Position numbers and translations under genes: made by a program. The notes beneath the pieces were generated by a model. The model was not told the DNA's origin. It worked only from the letters and a program-made list of their open reading frames with translations, and made no database searches. From assembly GCA_018901755.1 (NCBI GenBank), contig JAHIDZ010000016.1, positions 1 through 62,102 of the forward strand: a stretch of 62,102 nucleotides of DNA, written 5' to 3'. This document shows positions 38,037 to 45,555 of this stretch, piece by piece. The first letter of the stretch is position 1. Every line of letters begins with the position of its first letter. This DNA comes from Nanobdellota archaeon (GTDB taxonomy: Archaea; Aenigmatarchaeota; Aenigmatarchaeia; Aenigmatarchaeales; Aenigmatarchaeaceae).

Positions 38037-39122
38037 CTAATTCTCAACCATAATTGTTTTAATTTTAGATGTTAGTGCGTACATGAATGCTTTTCCACGT
38101 GCTTCACGTTGTACAAAACCGTCTAACATCAATCTATGTAAAATATTATTTATTGAACGTGCGGCATGGCTATCTGATTTGTAAGATTTGAATTCCAATT
38201 GTTCAACAATAGAACCCGGTGTTAACCAGTCTGATCTTCCAAGCAATTCAATTATTTTCTTTTGTTTGTATGGTAAATTAGTTAATTGCTCTTTTGATGG
38301 TGGTTTTGGTGAAAATGTTACAATTGGCCCATCAACTCTCACATTTGAAACCTCAACTTCCCTATGTTCTTGTACATCAGAAAAATCTATTTCATCTTTT
38401 TCAACAGTATTTATTAATCTATTACATTTTTTCAAAACTTCTCTTGGGAATCCTCCAGTATTTTCAAAAATTCTATCAACTGCCTGTTCTGTAAATGGTA
38501 TTATTCCTGAACCACCAACTGCCTCAATTCTTTTCTTTATCAAATCTTTAGTACTACTTTTATCTAAAGCCTGTAAAGATATACGAGTCGTTATTCTCTG
38601 GTCCAGTGTTTCTAATTTATCTCTCACATTTTGTTCTAAATTTGGTAATCCGGCCATTATAACACTAACGCTTTCAATTTGATCTATTAGAACTCTTAAC
38701 CATTCTAAAACATTTTTATCTGTTTCATGTGCTTCGTCTAAAAGAAATATAAGTTTTCCAGTTTTTACTTTCTTGTTCACGTATTGTGGTAAATTATGAA
38801 GGTTTGGTTTTATTCTAAAAATCTTTTCAATTAAAGTTGGATGAAAAAGATCTGTGAATATATCTACAAATACTTCTGGAGAAACTGGTGGCTTACTCAC
38901 GTACAGAACATGTTCACGTGTATTAAATTCAATCCATTTTAACATAGATGTTTTACCAGAACCAGTAGCACCAGTCAATAATGCTATTTTATGACCATTA
39001 TCAATATGATCTAGAGCTGCTTTTAATTGCTCTTCATATCCTGTAAAAAGTTTTGGATCTATTTTTAATACGAAAGGATTAGAATTCCAGTTCCATTTTT
39101 TGAATTTTTCGTTCATTTTCAA
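38037..39122 (-). CDS. AAA+ ATPase with C-terminal winged helix (Orc1/Cdc6- or ExeA-like)
   Basis: 361 aa. Walker A GATGSGKT at residues 51-58, Walker B LIFLLDEAHE around 125-133, sensor-1 region SVIMAGLPNLEQ and arginine-finger region LDQRITTRI. The C-terminal 70 residues (KIIELLGRSDWLTPGSIVEQL...LMLDGFVQREARGKAF) form a winged helix. This plan is shared by archaeal initiators and by ExeA/TniB-type ATPases; the motif spacing is closer to the latter. The repeat-packed region immediately upstream favours an initiator-like or self-regulating role. Confidence 0.7.
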   Translation of the reverse strand: MKMNEKFKKWNWNSNPFVLKIDPKLFTGYEEQLKAALDHIDNGHKIALLTGATGSGKTSMLKWIEFNTREHVLYVSKPPVSPEVFVDIFTDLFHPTLIEKIFRIKPNLHNLPQYVNKKVKTGKLIFLLDEAHETDKNVLEWLRVLIDQIESVSVIMAGLPNLEQNVRDKLETLDQRITTRISLQALDKSSTKDLIKKRIEAVGGSGIIPFTEQAVDRIFENTGGFPREVLKKCNRLINTVEKDEIDFSDVQEHREVEVSNVRVDGPIVTFSPKPPSKEQLTNLPYKQKKIIELLGRSDWLTPGSIVEQLEFKSYKSDSHAARSINNILHRLMLDGFVQREARGKAFMYALTSKIKTIMVEN

Positions 39123-39564
39123 TCAATATAATATGGAAGCATTATATATTTAAAGTTTCTATGTTTCACGTGAAGTTATTATATGAACACGTGAACATTT
39201 CGTGAACATGTAATGTGAACATTTTTTAATTTTATGAAAATTTATTAAAAAATAGTAAAATTTTTAAGAAATTCGTAAATATTACCAATTTTGTGAAATG
39301 TGAGAATTCTGACATGTAAATTAATAGATTTGTTTAATTGGTCAAATATATTCACGTGAAGTTCACGTGAATACTAATTAGTTCACGTGAACATTTTATC
39401 AATTGTTGAAATTACCACTGGTCCGGGTGGTTAATTGGGAGACCTTCACGTGAACATGCCACGTGAACATGTGAAGGTTTCGTGAAGGTCACGCGTGAAC
39501 ATTTTTCGAGAATATAGTCTTATGATAGTCTCACGTGAATATCACAGATAACCCAAAGAATAAT
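39123..39564. other. Candidate replication origin: CACGTG-centred repeat array
   Basis: Gene-free region upstream of the AAA+ ATPase gene. CACGTG hexamers at 39167, 39188, 39353, 39364, 39384, 39447, 39460 and 39532, most inside TTCACGTGAA or CACGTGAACAT, plus degenerate copies (TCGTGAACAT, ATGTGAACAT, CGCGTGAACAT). An AT-rich block (39221-39300) could unwind. ACCAC-TGGTCCGG-GTGGT (39414-39431) makes a GC hairpin. The layout (initiator-like gene, repeated boxes, AT-rich segment) is that of archaeal origins, though operator sites for the ATPase gene would look similar. Confidence 0.5.
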
Positions 39565-41613
39565 CTATATAATAGACTCAAACCCTTTCTCAAGTGTTAC
39601 AATTCTGACCTTTGTCTGTGGCAATAGACTTTTAGCAAGCTTACCAAGAATACGCATCTGTTCTAAAGAAGGACTAGGTATATTCATATAATTAGGATCT
39701 AATGTATTTTTTGGCTTAAATTGTTGTAATGTATACAAATCGAACTTATATTCATTAACAATCTTAGCAATATTCGCTATATCTTCTTCAGAATCATTAA
39801 GACCAGGAACTATTGTTGTTCTAGCCTCTTTTGGAAACTTGCACTTTCTTATAATTTCTAAAGTTTTTGATAAATTGGTTATAATATAGGAACTATTTAC
39901 ACCGATTGCCTTATCATACTTCTCAAAAGGGGCTTTGATATCTAATGATATGAAACTTAACGCTGGTAGAATCTTCTCCAATTTTTCTGGAAATGAACCA
40001 TTTGTATCTAATTTTATCGCTAGTGGTGTATTCTTGCGTAAAGCTGCTATAAGTTTAATTATATCTTCTTGTATTAGTGGTTCGCCGCCTGTTAAGCATA
40101 CTGCTTCAATTAAAAAATTATTAGCTAGTGGCTGAACTATTTCTTCAACATTAACTTTTTTACTAACATCTCCTGTTACAAGATCTTTATTATGACAATT
40201 CGATACATTAATTAAAGATACATTGTATGTATGACTCTTGTTATTCATCTCAAGATTATATATATTTGTGTTCTTTTTTTCTTTTTTTATATCGCGAATT
40301 TTCAAATAAACCCTATCTTTATCTAAAAAACCATAACATTCATCAAAATTTATGATTTTTTTGGTAATTAGATGATTCTGCCCCAAGATGCCAAATATCT
40401 TCTTATCTGTTATAAGTATTTCATTTCTAAATCGAGAATGTTTTATTCCGAGACGATATAAAATCAAACTAATTTGATAATACAAACTACCAGAGCTTAT
40501 TTGAATCCTCTGTTTTTGGTACTTTTTTATATATTTTTCCGAACTGATTCCGTCTCCTCTGAATAACCCTTTTATTAATTCTATCTGTAGTTTTTTGTCT
40601 AAATATATAAAATCTATAGGCAGTTTCTTATCGCAACAATTTGAACCAAAATAATATTTAAATAGTATTCCTATGATTCCTCTATCACAACATAGTTGTA
40701 CAGTATTATTTTCATCTATCTTTGATTCTCTTAATTTTATATTAAAAATATTAGAGAATATTTTTTTAGTATCTTTAATGTATTTTTTTTCTTTTTGATT
40801 AAAGGTAAATCCTATGCAATATGAATTTTTCCGATTTTTGTCTTTGGTAGTATGTCCTTCTGAAAGATAATAACCGATTAATCTCATAAATTCTGGCGTA
40901 ATTTTTATAAATTTATTTAAATAAAACTCGCTTCCTTTCACAGCAATTTTACCATTCTTTTCCTTAATGGCCGGCAGAATCTTACTATCTAAATAGTCTT
41001 TCTTTTCTATTATTCGTCTTATATTATCGTTTAAACCAGTTTCTTTATAAATTTTTCTCCAACTATATCCTTTATTACGCAATTCTATTACCTTATTAAT
41101 TATATCTTTATCATTAAATCTTAGCCTATAATTTAGCTCTTTGTATAAGTCAAGAATAGCTGGTCGAACATCAATTTTATAGGCATTAATTTGTCTTTGC
41201 GGTATGGTAATTGTCAAATAATCATATTTTCTATCTAAATTGTTGGCTTCTTTTTCAACAATTTTATCTAATTTAGAACTATACACCAAAAATTTATGGT
41301 TTGGCGTGCACTCTATAATTTCTGTGTTATAAAATGTTCTTATCTGAAGAATCTCTTTCGCTACTCTTTTATAATATTTTTTTATTGTAGAAAAATCACC
41401 AAGTGAATCATATACTTTACAATTTATTTTATTTTCAACTATATCTTTAATCTTCATCTTGCCCCGATCTGTCAATAAATAATTGTTTTCTGTGAAACAG
41501 AATGGACAACGGAAGTTGCAACCAGATAGATAAACTACTGCACACATTTTACCTGGGTAATCTATGGTAGAACTATGAACAATTCCTGCAAAATCTATCA
41601 TATTATCGTCCAA
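39565..41613 (-). CDS. nrdG: Anaerobic ribonucleotide reductase activating enzyme (NrdG), intein-containing
   Basis: 682 aa precursor. The first 38 residues plus the segment after the intein (about 248 aa in all) form a radical SAM activase: GCNFRCPF before and CHNKDLVTGD after the 434-residue intein, so splicing restores C-x3-C-x2-C. LTGGEPLIQE and IKLDTNGSFPEKLE are further SAM motifs. It installs the glycyl radical on NrdD, encoded in the same operon. It overlaps the glutaredoxin-like gene by 11 nt at its start. Confidence 0.93.
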   Translation of the reverse strand: MDDNMIDFAGIVHSSTIDYPGKMCAVVYLSGCNFRCPFCFTENNYLLTDRGKMKIKDIVENKINCKVYDSLGDFSTIKKYYKRVAKEILQIRTFYNTEIIECTPNHKFLVYSSKLDKIVEKEANNLDRKYDYLTITIPQRQINAYKIDVRPAILDLYKELNYRLRFNDKDIINKVIELRNKGYSWRKIYKETGLNDNIRRIIEKKDYLDSKILPAIKEKNGKIAVKGSEFYLNKFIKITPEFMRLIGYYLSEGHTTKDKNRKNSYCIGFTFNQKEKKYIKDTKKIFSNIFNIKLRESKIDENNTVQLCCDRGIIGILFKYYFGSNCCDKKLPIDFIYLDKKLQIELIKGLFRGDGISSEKYIKKYQKQRIQISSGSLYYQISLILYRLGIKHSRFRNEILITDKKIFGILGQNHLITKKIINFDECYGFLDKDRVYLKIRDIKKEKKNTNIYNLEMNNKSHTYNVSLINVSNCHNKDLVTGDVSKKVNVEEIVQPLANNFLIEAVCLTGGEPLIQEDIIKLIAALRKNTPLAIKLDTNGSFPEKLEKILPALSFISLDIKAPFEKYDKAIGVNSSYIITNLSKTLEIIRKCKFPKEARTTIVPGLNDSEEDIANIAKIVNEYKFDLYTLQQFKPKNTLDPNYMNIPSPSLEQMRILGKLAKSLLPQTKVRIVTLEKGFESII
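40198..41499 (-). other. Intein in NrdG with LAGLIDADG homing endonuclease
   Basis: 434 residues, Cys1 (CFTENNYLLTDRGKMKIKDI) to Asn (INVSN), followed by Cys+1. Block B is TPNHKF; block F is YNLEMNNKSHTYNV. Endonuclease motifs are LIGYYLSEG and LIKGLFRGDG with acidic catalytic residues. The penultimate residue is Ser instead of the usual His. The insertion lies precisely before the third Cys of the radical SAM cluster motif. Confidence 0.93.
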
Positions 41614-41968
41614 GTGCTTTTAATAACTCCTCTCTCGTTGGAACTTTACTTACAAATCTAACAACTCCGTCTATAACTATCGACGGGGTAGAAGCTACTT
41701 GATGCATTAATGCTTCTAAAGAATAATCATCACATCCTACTATTGCTGGTGTTAACTCTGGTGTTATCTGTTCTGGATAACGAACTATATTGAAGCTGTC
41801 TCCTTCAAGAACAATTGGTCCTGGAGCTAAACTTTTACCATCTACTAATTTTTCAATAAAATCTTTACCTTCTACCCACCCGATTTCTTTACAAACTTCT
41901 CTTACAACTTTTCTAGCTAATGGACATTTAGGACATCGTGTTGAAGTATATAAAATAATTCTTGACAT
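41603..41968 (-). CDS. Glutaredoxin/thioredoxin-like protein of the nrd operon
   Basis: 121 aa thioredoxin-fold protein with the redox pair CPKC in TSTRCPKCPLA, and the cis-Pro region STPSIVIDGVVRF near the C-terminus. Wedged between nrdD (1-nt overlap) and nrdG (11-nt overlap), so it is likely the electron donor for the class III reductase in place of, or beside, formate. Reduction by the trxB product is plausible. Confidence 0.85.
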   Translation of the reverse strand: MSRIILYTSTRCPKCPLARKVVREVCKEIGWVEGKDFIEKLVDGKSLAPGPIVLEGDSFNIVRYPEQITPELTPAIVGCDDYSLEALMHQVASTPSIVIDGVVRFVSKVPTREELLKALGR

Positions 41969-44900
41969 TATAATCCATATCTCCTTCTATCTTTTAATTC
42001 TTGAAGTTTACCTTTGTTCCAACCTGTAATATTTTGATAATAACCAGTTATTCTCGACCAGCTTTGCACATTTTTACTTTGACAAGATGGACACGAATCT
42101 ACTAGATTACCTAAAGTAAATCCACAGGAATTACATATTGTTAAATCTTTAGTAAATGCCATGTACTGAATCGCTGTTTTTGTCGCGAGATCTTTAGTTA
42201 ATTTCATTACAGCTTCTGGATCAGGATTTGTGTCTCCTAACCACACATGACTCATTGCACCACCATCTGTTAAAGGATGAAACGAGCCCTCTACATTCAT
42301 TCTTTGGAATAACGGCACGTCTGCATTAGGCCTCACGTGAAATGAATTTGTATAATAAATAGAATTTGTTGATGGGTCTCCTTGATATACGGCTTTTGAT
42401 GGGAATCTTCTTTTATCAATTGTTGCAAAACGATACGCGGTTGATTCTGCTGGTGTTCTTGCTAACGCAAAGTTTAAACCAGTTTCTTCTCTAAGTTTAG
42501 CAACTTTATCTTTCATGTGTTTCATTACCTTTAATCCAAACATCCATGCAGCTTGATTTTCATGAAGTTCAGAACCTGTACAATATTTTACCATTTCATT
42601 TATTCCGACCATACCGATAGTAAAGCTCTGTTTACTTGGTTCATAATATCTGTCTCCTTTTTCATTTACTTTTTGTGCTAAGAAAGGTAACATTCCATTT
42701 TTTAGATTTTTTTCTATCAAATCTTTTCTTAGAAGCATAACTTGTTTAGCTACATCCATTCTTTCGTCTATCAGTTGGAATAGTCTTGATTCTTCTTTAT
42801 CTGATTCGTATGCAATCTGTGGTAAATTTATTGTAACTACTTGCAAAGAACCGCCACGAACTGTTCCATTTAACATATCATCTTTATCTGATGATGTTTC
42901 TAATGGCATAAGAAATGCACAACAATTTGATGAAAATATTCCGTCTGATGTAAGGAAATTATGATAGTTTTCAACATTTACAAGATCATAAACATAATCG
43001 CTATGCGTTTCTTCTATGATCTTAACTTCAAAGGTATGCAGATCACTCTGTAAGAAACGAGAATGAAACTCGTCACTCATATCAAGTCTTTTACTAGTTA
43101 TTCTTTTTCCTATCTGACATCTGTTCCAATGACCAACCTTTAAATCTTCTCTTGTTATGTTAAATGGTTCTGTTGGAATTCTTTCGTAAAAATCAAATGA
43201 TTTTCCAAGAACGGTAGGTACGTTATCAGAAAATGGCACACTATCTAAAAATGTCTTTTTCGCAAGATTGCTGGTTAATCGTAGCGAATAAGAATCCTCA
43301 CCATAATACTTTTCAAATGGGGTTCCTATTCTTAAACCAAGAATGAAAATATCATCTATTAAATTTCTATTACATAGATGTAAATCTATTTTGTCTGAAT
43401 TATGACCGTCTCCTCTAAACATGCCTAACATAAACTCTTTTATAATATACCATGGAGAATTCATTATAATTTCTGGAACTCTTTTACTGTGTGCATCATA
43501 ACCTGTTGATATATTTTCAAACAATTCGACCAATTCTTTGCTATATACATAAACCGTATTTGTTTTATTCTTTACAGAAATATCATATTTTGCGACCATA
43601 TTAAACTTATTTTTAAGTATAGTTGAAACATCATCAATATATTCCTTCTCGTTAATGTTAAAAGAAAAACTTATTTTGTTGTATCTTGTTTTTTTATTTG
43701 CTTTGTGCATATATCCTTCGCTTGCAAAATACCCAAACAGTCTTGCAAAATCACTATCTATCTCTAACTTCTTTCCAGCAAATTCAACGAATCTGTCAAA
43801 ATCAAATTCAAGCGGTATGTTCTTTGCGCCAATTAAATAATCTCCTACTTTAACATCTTCCATTCGTATTTCTATTATTTTACCGTCTCTAACGACTGGT
43901 ATTTTATGTTTTATTGTTCCTGAGAACATTCTATTTCCATCAAGAGTAAGTTTTAGTATCTTTTCTTTAGTTCGGTGTCGCATGACTTTTTCTATTTTCA
44001 TTTTCTTTATTTCGAGCGTATTGGTATCGAATGAAACTGCCATATCATTACAACTAGCGAGTTCGGTTTCTCCGTCAAATCCTTTTCTTATTTCCACGTT
44101 ACTAGTTTTCATTATAGAATCGACATATTCCCCGATTTCTATGTTCTGCAACTTTCCATCTCTTAGAATCAGTATCTTTTCACTTCCTGGTATTGACTGA
44201 TAACAAGAAAACTCTGGCATATATGGTTGTCTAATTATGTAATATGGCGTCCCAAACTTTGCTGCAAGTTCAGAAACTTTAAACAATTCTGTGCTATTTC
44301 CATTATTCATATGTTTAGGATCTATTGTAACTTCAAATTTAGGAAAATTGAACGGTTTACCTTGATAATCTCCTTCCATGTAAACATCTAAAAATGCATT
44401 AAATAATTTTTTTGTTTCGTCTTCATAATCGCCATAGGTTCCTTTTGCGTCAGAACCACGTAAACCTATAACTGGAACATCTTTTAACAAATTCGGTACT
44501 GACATATCTAAATCAATTGATGAAAAAACTGTTTGACCGCCTCGTGCAACGTACATCTGAGTCATTTCATAAATAAACAATTGTGCCATCTGTTTCATCT
44601 GTTTTTCCGTTAATCCTGCAACAATAGGAGCCATGAATGTATTAAAAAATGAAAATCCTTGACCACCAGCACAATTAGTTTGCGCTGCTGCTAGTACTTT
44701 GGCTGCATGAAGAAATGCCACTTCTGGTTTTTTTGCAGGACCTGCTATTGATGTATGCGTGCCAGTTCCGTCAGGCCTGAAGCCATTCTTAATAAAATAT
44801 CTCACATCATGACTAAAACAAAATGGTCTTGAAAAGAAATAATCTAAATCATGAACATGTATCTGTCCTAATATATGAGCGTCTGTTATTTGTTTAGGAA

Positions 44901-45555
44901 GTATTTTTAGAAGCGTATATTCTTTACTCATTGTATCTGCCATTATTTTATGTATCGTTTCTGGATTGTATTGTAAATTTGCATTTTCTTTTGATCCTTT
45001 TTCTATTATTTTACTTAAATCATAAACCGGCATTCCAATTCTTGTATAGAGACTACGTTCATTTGCAAATCCATGTTCGACCAATTTCACATTAACAATT
45101 TCTCTAACCAATGGTGATGTGATGTGCTCTAAATTTGCTGATTTAATAAACTTCTCTGCTTCAAATGCAATCATTTCTGCATCTTTTATTTCCATACCTG
45201 TTTCTTTTACTAGAGATTCGGCTATCTTACCTCTATTGAATCTCTCATATGTCTGCGATGAGGTTTGTATATAGACTTCTCCTGCTTTGAAACGTCTTGC
45301 TGCGGTTGGATCATATTTAGCAAGTAGCGCATAAATTAACGGACGTATATCAGACATCTTAATTCGACTATCTGCATAATGGTCTATCTCGTAAGAAACT
45401 TTTTTACAGGTATCTTCAGATGCTCCGGTCTTAGTGCATGCTGCGAAAACTTTATCTTTTGAATATTTTTCAGTTTTAGAAACCCAGAATAGAATATTGT
45501 TCTTATCTTTTGCGTAAAAATCTTCAATTACCTTAGTAGAGATATTACTTTTCAT
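41968..45555 (-). CDS. nrdD: Anaerobic ribonucleoside-triphosphate reductase (NrdD), intein-containing
   Basis: 1195 aa precursor, about 771 aa after splicing. N-terminal ATP-cone (WVSKTEKYSKDKVFAACTK), catalytic barrel (THTSIAGPAKKPEVAFLHAA, QTNCAGGQGFSFFNTF), zinc site CNSCGFTL...CPSCQSKN and the glycyl-radical motif RITGYYQ near the end. It makes deoxyribonucleotides without oxygen. The intein (residues about 454-877) sits before a CC pair (CCAFLM). AGGAAGG upstream is a ribosome site. First gene of the operon. Confidence 0.95.
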   Translation of the reverse strand: MKSNISTKVIEDFYAKDKNNILFWVSKTEKYSKDKVFAACTKTGASEDTCKKVSYEIDHYADSRIKMSDIRPLIYALLAKYDPTAARRFKAGEVYIQTSSQTYERFNRGKIAESLVKETGMEIKDAEMIAFEAEKFIKSANLEHITSPLVREIVNVKLVEHGFANERSLYTRIGMPVYDLSKIIEKGSKENANLQYNPETIHKIMADTMSKEYTLLKILPKQITDAHILGQIHVHDLDYFFSRPFCFSHDVRYFIKNGFRPDGTGTHTSIAGPAKKPEVAFLHAAKVLAAAQTNCAGGQGFSFFNTFMAPIVAGLTEKQMKQMAQLFIYEMTQMYVARGGQTVFSSIDLDMSVPNLLKDVPVIGLRGSDAKGTYGDYEDETKKLFNAFLDVYMEGDYQGKPFNFPKFEVTIDPKHMNNGNSTELFKVSELAAKFGTPYYIIRQPYMPEFSCYQSIPGSEKILILRDGKLQNIEIGEYVDSIMKTSNVEIRKGFDGETELASCNDMAVSFDTNTLEIKKMKIEKVMRHRTKEKILKLTLDGNRMFSGTIKHKIPVVRDGKIIEIRMEDVKVGDYLIGAKNIPLEFDFDRFVEFAGKKLEIDSDFARLFGYFASEGYMHKANKKTRYNKISFSFNINEKEYIDDVSTILKNKFNMVAKYDISVKNKTNTVYVYSKELVELFENISTGYDAHSKRVPEIIMNSPWYIIKEFMLGMFRGDGHNSDKIDLHLCNRNLIDDIFILGLRIGTPFEKYYGEDSYSLRLTSNLAKKTFLDSVPFSDNVPTVLGKSFDFYERIPTEPFNITREDLKVGHWNRCQIGKRITSKRLDMSDEFHSRFLQSDLHTFEVKIIEETHSDYVYDLVNVENYHNFLTSDGIFSSNCCAFLMPLETSSDKDDMLNGTVRGGSLQVVTINLPQIAYESDKEESRLFQLIDERMDVAKQVMLLRKDLIEKNLKNGMLPFLAQKVNEKGDRYYEPSKQSFTIGMVGINEMVKYCTGSELHENQAAWMFGLKVMKHMKDKVAKLREETGLNFALARTPAESTAYRFATIDKRRFPSKAVYQGDPSTNSIYYTNSFHVRPNADVPLFQRMNVEGSFHPLTDGGAMSHVWLGDTNPDPEAVMKLTKDLATKTAIQYMAFTKDLTICNSCGFTLGNLVDSCPSCQSKNVQSWSRITGYYQNITGWNKGKLQELKDRRRYGL
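42925..44196 (-). other. Intein in NrdD with LAGLIDADG homing endonuclease
   Basis: 424 residues. Block A aligns best with Ser1 (SIPGSEKILILRDGKL); a Cys three codons earlier is an alternative. Block B region is GTIKHKIPV; endonuclease motifs are LFGYFASEG and MLGMFRGDG; the end is NYHNFLTSDGIFSSN followed by Cys+1. As in the NrdG intein, the penultimate residue is Ser rather than His. Confidence 0.9.

Follow-up and report, generated by a model that had tools for sequence, protein, structure and literature searches.

A helically phased array of GTGAA half-sites linked to the gene of an AAA+/winged-helix ATPase near the likely replication origin of Aenigmatarchaeota

The locus and its repeat unit

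The stretch of DNA analyzed here (hereafter the window) is a whole contig of 62,102 bp within an 835-kb archaeal draft genome. It contains a dense array of short repeats in non-coding DNA. An AAA+ ATPase gene, which starts at 39113-39122, bounds this DNA on one side, and an NrdG-like gene, whose stop codon is at 39565, bounds it on the other; open reading frames were called mechanically. The array is not the promoter of the NrdG-like gene, because the 3′ end of that gene abuts it. Genes for a histone, RPA, and RadA are found in the same cluster, as a first-pass annotation of the window had claimed. The features of the locus are as follows.

38037-39122, minus strand: AAA+ ATPase with a C-terminal winged helix, about 358-361 amino acids, starting at TTG 39122 or ATG 39113; presumed binder of the array
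38910-38922, minus strand: CACGTGAACAT within the ATPase coding region, from a motif scan of the genome
39165-39540, unstranded: iteron array of eight CACGTG palindromes and 19 GTGAA half-sites, from motif counts; phased at 10.5 bp when taken together with relatives
39162-39222, unstranded: promoter-proximal half-site cluster, with CACGTG at 39167 and 39188 and half-sites at 39202 and 39215, from motif counts
39216-39350, unstranded: AT-rich spacer (83% AT by base composition) separating two half-site groups
39348-39394, unstranded: distal cluster, with CACGTG at 39353, 39364, and 39384 at spacings of 11 and 20, from motif positions
39384-39452, unstranded: 63-bp module bounded by two CACGTG; a spacing of 62-64 bp recurs in relatives
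39410-39436, unstranded: candidate GC hairpin with ACCAC/GTGGT arms
39442-39542, unstranded: distal cluster, with CACGTG at 39447, 39460, and 39532 and tandem half-sites at 39471, 39482, and 39495, from motif counts
39565-41613, minus strand: NrdG-like radical-SAM activase with an intein, from profile matches; its 3′ end abuts the array

All eight CACGTG hexamers that the first-pass annotation had placed in less than 400 bp were located within 371 bp (39167, 39188, 39353, 39364, 39384, 39447, 39460, and 39532). The whole window contains 14 copies versus 2.8 expected from shuffles, and the density outside the array predicts 0.036 copies for a 371-bp stretch (P ~7e-17). Of the array hexamers, five occur as TTCACGTGAA and four as CACGTGAACAT; only one of the eight has neither form, in line with the earlier statement that most lie within two longer sequences. 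Across the 835-kb genome, TTCACGTGAA and CACGTGAACAT have five matches each, all at the array locus, including one CACGTGAACAT just inside the ATPase gene. The non-coding character of the stretch and its AT-rich block were likewise confirmed, and the degenerate copies described around the hexamers turned out to be genuine half-sites. A candidate GC hairpin in the array was rejected as a functional element: its stability is no better than that of shuffled sequence (z -0.47), and it is not conserved, being missing in G005, the nearest relative with an array.

CACGTG is not the true repeat unit, which is smaller: the half-site GTGAA(N)(N)T, of which the window array holds 19 copies, with GTGAA followed by (G/C/T)(A/T/G)T as the consensus across relatives; CACGTG forms where two half-sites meet head to head, and the other half-sites are arranged in tandem. 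Spacings between half-sites on the same strand peak at 11, 20-23, 30-32, 41-43, 51-54, and 62-64 bp, and 11 bp is dominant. Fourier power was maximal at 10.5 bp in ten relatives of the order (80.7 versus a jitter-null maximum of 24), and its value at 10.5 bp in twenty other loci was 95.8 versus a null of 40. CACGTG pairs at 62-64 bp were also in excess, with 9 of 90 versus 1.5 expected. The array therefore consists of tandem repeats with helical spacing, as iterons do (period 10.5 bp, dominant spacing 11 bp). Literature searches in open-access papers found no description of this array.

The ATPase gene was confirmed by profiles (Pfam AAA_22, 2.4e-12) and by an AF2 model (pLDDT 89), in agreement with its initial description as an AAA+ protein with a winged helix lying downstream of the array. 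In an alignment of 28 members, Walker A/B are invariant or nearly so, the arginine of the GGFPR region (consensus GGFPRE) is invariant, and the winged-helix segment HAxRSxNNILxRL is nearly invariant. The best fold match of the model in the PDB was the Orc1/Cdc6-DNA complex 2qby_A (E 1.7e-11), with a high global rmsd (about 16 Å), and the likeness lies in the domains and their order. The model thus has an Orc-like fold, an AAA+ domain followed by a winged helix, as a matter of resemblance and not of membership: none of the Orc1/Cdc6 models TIGR02928, PF09079, and PF22703 was among the matches of the ATPase, whereas all three match the true Cdc6 of this genome. The best sequence model was TIGR03015 (E 5.7e-23; 81.7 bits versus a cut-off of 324.5), and Foldseek matched TnsC to the AAA domain. 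The protein is thus weakly similar to the TIGR03015/ExeA-TnsC-like AAA ATPases; it scores far below the cut-off of the family and, unlike them, is accompanied by the array and ends in a winged helix. A viral origin was rejected, as no relative of the ATPase was found in viral contigs.

On the other side of the array, the NrdG-like activase and the adjacent anaerobic ribonucleotide reductase (41968-45555) both contain long intein-like insertions. Intein splicing and LAGLIDADG domains were detected in the activase, and its orthologue in G005 is only about 735 bp long.

Linkage of the array to the ATPase gene across Aenigmatarchaeota

The ATPase is present in 48 of 59 relatives and in 110 of the 156 phylum genomes searched (absent from 46), and the named relatives retrieved with it are mostly 'Candidatus Aenigmatarchaeota'. 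All the genomes are drafts or MAGs, and the relatives are not independent of one another, for which bootstrapping over genomes is a partial remedy only. The first-pass annotation had proposed a motif search upstream of the orthologous ATPase gene as a check; half-sites were enriched (p<0.01) within 600 bp upstream of that gene in 43 of 44 loci across Aenigmatarchaeota. Within most of the ~20-kb loci that were read, half-sites reach their highest density at the array, and in most relatives from the same order a CACGTG recurs 20-75 bp upstream of the gene. The span of the array varies among genomes from 0.4 to 1.05 kb.

TTCACGTGAA clusters at the ATPase locus in almost every genome that carries copies, and genome-wide it is nearly confined there; G021, for example, has 11 copies over about 1 kb. 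Most genomes without the ATPase (G013, G046, G051, and G053) lack TTCACGTGAA genome-wide, and two others without it (G015 and G056) have real copies, but scattered ones. The arrays of G028, G034, and G050 sit at contig ends or at an assembly break, and for this reason the missing ATPase in G028 and G050 was read as a probable assembly gap. The listed members of family f22 (e.g., G051 and G056) all lack the ATPase, and the two checked carry only a divergent Cdc6; this pattern suggests that machinery of the origin region was lost or replaced together. Contig PIXU01000041.1, filed under a Methanophagales MAG, encodes this ATPase together with 28 half-sites in 300 bp; it probably belongs to Aenigmatarchaeota and was misbinned.

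The complete chromosome CP070662.1 carries two ATPase paralogues that are 45% identical. The second copy, at 461.5 kb (461000-465000), has 22 half-sites in 300 bp, so that the paralogue far from cdc6 (about 200 kb) has much the denser array. In family f16, the run of half-sites extends into coding sequences of genes neighboring the ATPase. In G054, tandem GTGAA half-sites were observed inside the ThpR-like and OB-fold coding sequences beside the ATPase (68500-69600 of locus L164); as these half-sites lie inside coding sequences, two constraints overlap in one sequence.

Across the phylum, the array thus goes with the ATPase gene, even with a duplicate copy far from the origin, and the proposal that the repeat is a new type of box or the ATPase's own array is well supported. 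The simplest reading of this linkage is that the array very probably serves as the ATPase's own binding platform, although another protein could bind the sites.

Likely position of the replication origin

The array had first been put forward as a candidate replication origin. In archaea, Orc1/Cdc6 proteins and ORB elements form replicator-initiator pairs (PMC4010727). The array locus resembles such pairs in having iterons next to an AAA+/winged-helix gene whose best fold match is Orc1/Cdc6, in its AT-rich spacer, and in its location in the origin region; an origin here, primary or second, would have the ATPase as an Orc1/Cdc6-like initiator. It differs from them in that the ATPase is not an Orc1/Cdc6 protein by sequence model and the repeat, GTGAANNT with palindromes of CACGTG, is not ORB. 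No match to TTCCNNTGGAAA (ORB/mini-ORB) within one mismatch was found in the array; the initial remark was likewise that the repeat differs from the classical archaeal origin box. Moreover, the array does not adjoin an orc1/cdc6 gene. A separate canonical Orc1/Cdc6 gene (E 3.9e-123) is located on another contig of this genome (C6:68389-69468), and ORB-like TTTCCNATGGAAA sites lie upstream of cdc6 in this genome and in most relatives. The distance from the array to cdc6 is ~30 kb, estimated from G005 synteny that joins the right ends of contigs C21 and C6.

In 21 genomes a single contig carries both the array and cdc6, separated by 0.35-58 kb; 18 of them have divergent ATPase and cdc6 genes, with the array and the ORB region between them. 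Nucleotide skew at four-fold sites, corrected for gene direction, was pooled over the 18 genomes with this layout; the local GC skew of the window alone is dominated by gene direction. The pooled AT skew was -0.051 to the left of the array, -0.083 from the array to cdc6, and +0.063 to the right of cdc6, and in 5-kb bins it changed from -0.093 to +0.115 at cdc6. The step at cdc6 was 0.146 (95% 0.073-0.234), whereas that at the array was -0.032 (-0.072 to 0.001), without a flip. The pooled GC skew changed sign at cdc6 with a step that was not significant.

Single genomes, whose chromosomes were sampled in stretches, gave the following optima. Along a 918-kb contig, G057 has its AT-skew optimum at 360 kb (p=0.03), which is nearer to cdc6 (357.3 kb) than to the array (376 kb). 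In CP070662.1, the GC-skew optimum is near 280 kb (p=0.029), close to cdc6 (264 kb), and skew places the origin at 180-300 kb, a long way from the full array (462 kb). Both genomes thus favor an origin at cdc6 or close to it. G037 does not fit an origin at cdc6 (AT4 optimum at 50 kb, p=0.019; GC4 not significant). These results indicate that the Aenigmatarchaeota replication origin is likely at cdc6, with A-rich leading strands, and that the array lies near the replication start but is not that start. We therefore rejected the array as the origin of replication, and a primary or second origin driven by the ATPase is very unlikely. Three observations had been named in advance as counting against an origin: the absence of a skew shift at the array and a canonical Orc1/Cdc6 elsewhere were both found, but loss of the array in close relatives was not, since it is conserved there.

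Sites related to the array also occur at cdc6. Outside the array and the ATPase gene, the only near-perfect palindromes in the window's genome, at C6:68322 and C6:69594, flank cdc6. Half-sites upstream of cdc6 are enriched in several families (in G002, 7 versus 0.9 expected); the enrichment is modest where present and was not seen in several other families, and no half-sites were found upstream of cdc6 in G015, a genome of the same order without the ATPase. The palindromes and half-sites at cdc6 suggest control of cdc6/oriC or organization of the origin region. The bacterial datA locus is a cluster of sites that titrates the initiator. In Haloarcula hispanica, the ORB cluster of oriC2 has been proposed to be repressive (PMC4010727). 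Like these two, the array is a dense group of sites away from the origin that could control initiation; unlike them, its sites are neither ORBs nor DnaA boxes.

Partition-like features and proposed function

The iterons of plasmids, such as parC of R1, tubC, and Rep iterons, are bound by RHH, TubR-type, or Rep proteins. The array shares with them direct repeats of ~11 bp that form two groups flanking the promoter of the binding system's gene; it differs in its presumed binder, an AAA+/winged-helix ATPase, and in being found on archaeal chromosomes phylum-wide. If the ATPase is the binder, iterons beside the promoter of their own binder would recall plasmid partition sites and the SegAB system (PMC12284271). 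In Sulfolobales, the palindromic SegAB sites lie just upstream of the operon and cluster nearby, reaching the oriC1 region; many sites are within genes, and the SegB motif TCTAGASTCTAGA is scattered over the chromosome (PMC12284271). Our sites are also just upstream of the linked gene and extend toward the origin region, as described for SegAB (PMC12284271). By contrast, they are CACGTG/GTGAANNT, tightly phased, and essentially in one cluster, and the linked gene encodes an AAA+/winged-helix ATPase.

A parS-type centromere of a ParABS or SegAB system was considered because TTCACGTGAA is the core of the bacterial parS consensus TGTTTCACGTGAAACA (PMC7022226) and many genomes have the locus close to the origin. 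A search for a ParA/MinD-type ATPase in the genome found one. However, no ParB_N (PF02195) protein is present in this genome, which excludes ParABS here, and only 2 of 59 relatives have one. The best match in the window to the full 16-bp parS has three mismatches, the outer parS positions failing to match; the half-sites also occur singly in tandem and not as palindromes alone; and the SegB motif was not found near the array within two mismatches. A centromere of either type is thus highly improbable.

A purely autoregulatory operator, in which the repeats are bound by the ATPase or by a repressor and control only the promoter of the ATPase gene, is harder to dismiss, and a long operator of this kind would look similar to the array. 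The window array is upstream of a single promoter, the gene-proximal CACGTG recurs in the order, and the array accompanies the gene to its duplicate locus. However, a span of up to 1.05 kb, the half-sites kept inside coding sequences of neighboring genes in f16, the near-perfect sites that also flank cdc6, and one helical phase common to all half-sites, which is beyond the need of one promoter, all argue against this explanation, and we consider it rather unlikely.

We favor, with moderate confidence, a gene-linked platform for maintenance of the origin region or for control of initiation, with autoregulation. One winged helix would read each half-site, and the one-turn spacing would align the half-sites along the same side of the helix, which would let ATPase subunits assemble in order into a complex, probably controlled by ATP, over 0.4-1 kb. 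Such a complex would cover the ATPase promoter, and regulation of the gene's own expression is expected for that reason. Its main job would be either to maintain the origin region, as a segregation platform, or to act through the secondary sites at cdc6/oriC and so control initiation. The proximity to the origin may reflect old gene order, because the fullest array of CP070662.1 is ~200 kb from cdc6. More tentatively, it is possible that the ATPase and its phased iterons constitute a new archaeal chromosome-maintenance system that segregates or licenses the origin region; just as tentatively, such a system may have no relation to ParABS or SegAB and may differ from Orc1/Cdc6.

An initiator-like gene beside a repeat array is by itself no evidence of an origin, and in Aenigmatarchaeota the pooled skew assigns the likely origin to cdc6. 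The ATPase and its candidate DNA site are conserved across most of one phylum, and the site is precise to the base. The pair bears on how chromosomes of DPANN archaea start replication, are controlled, and segregate.
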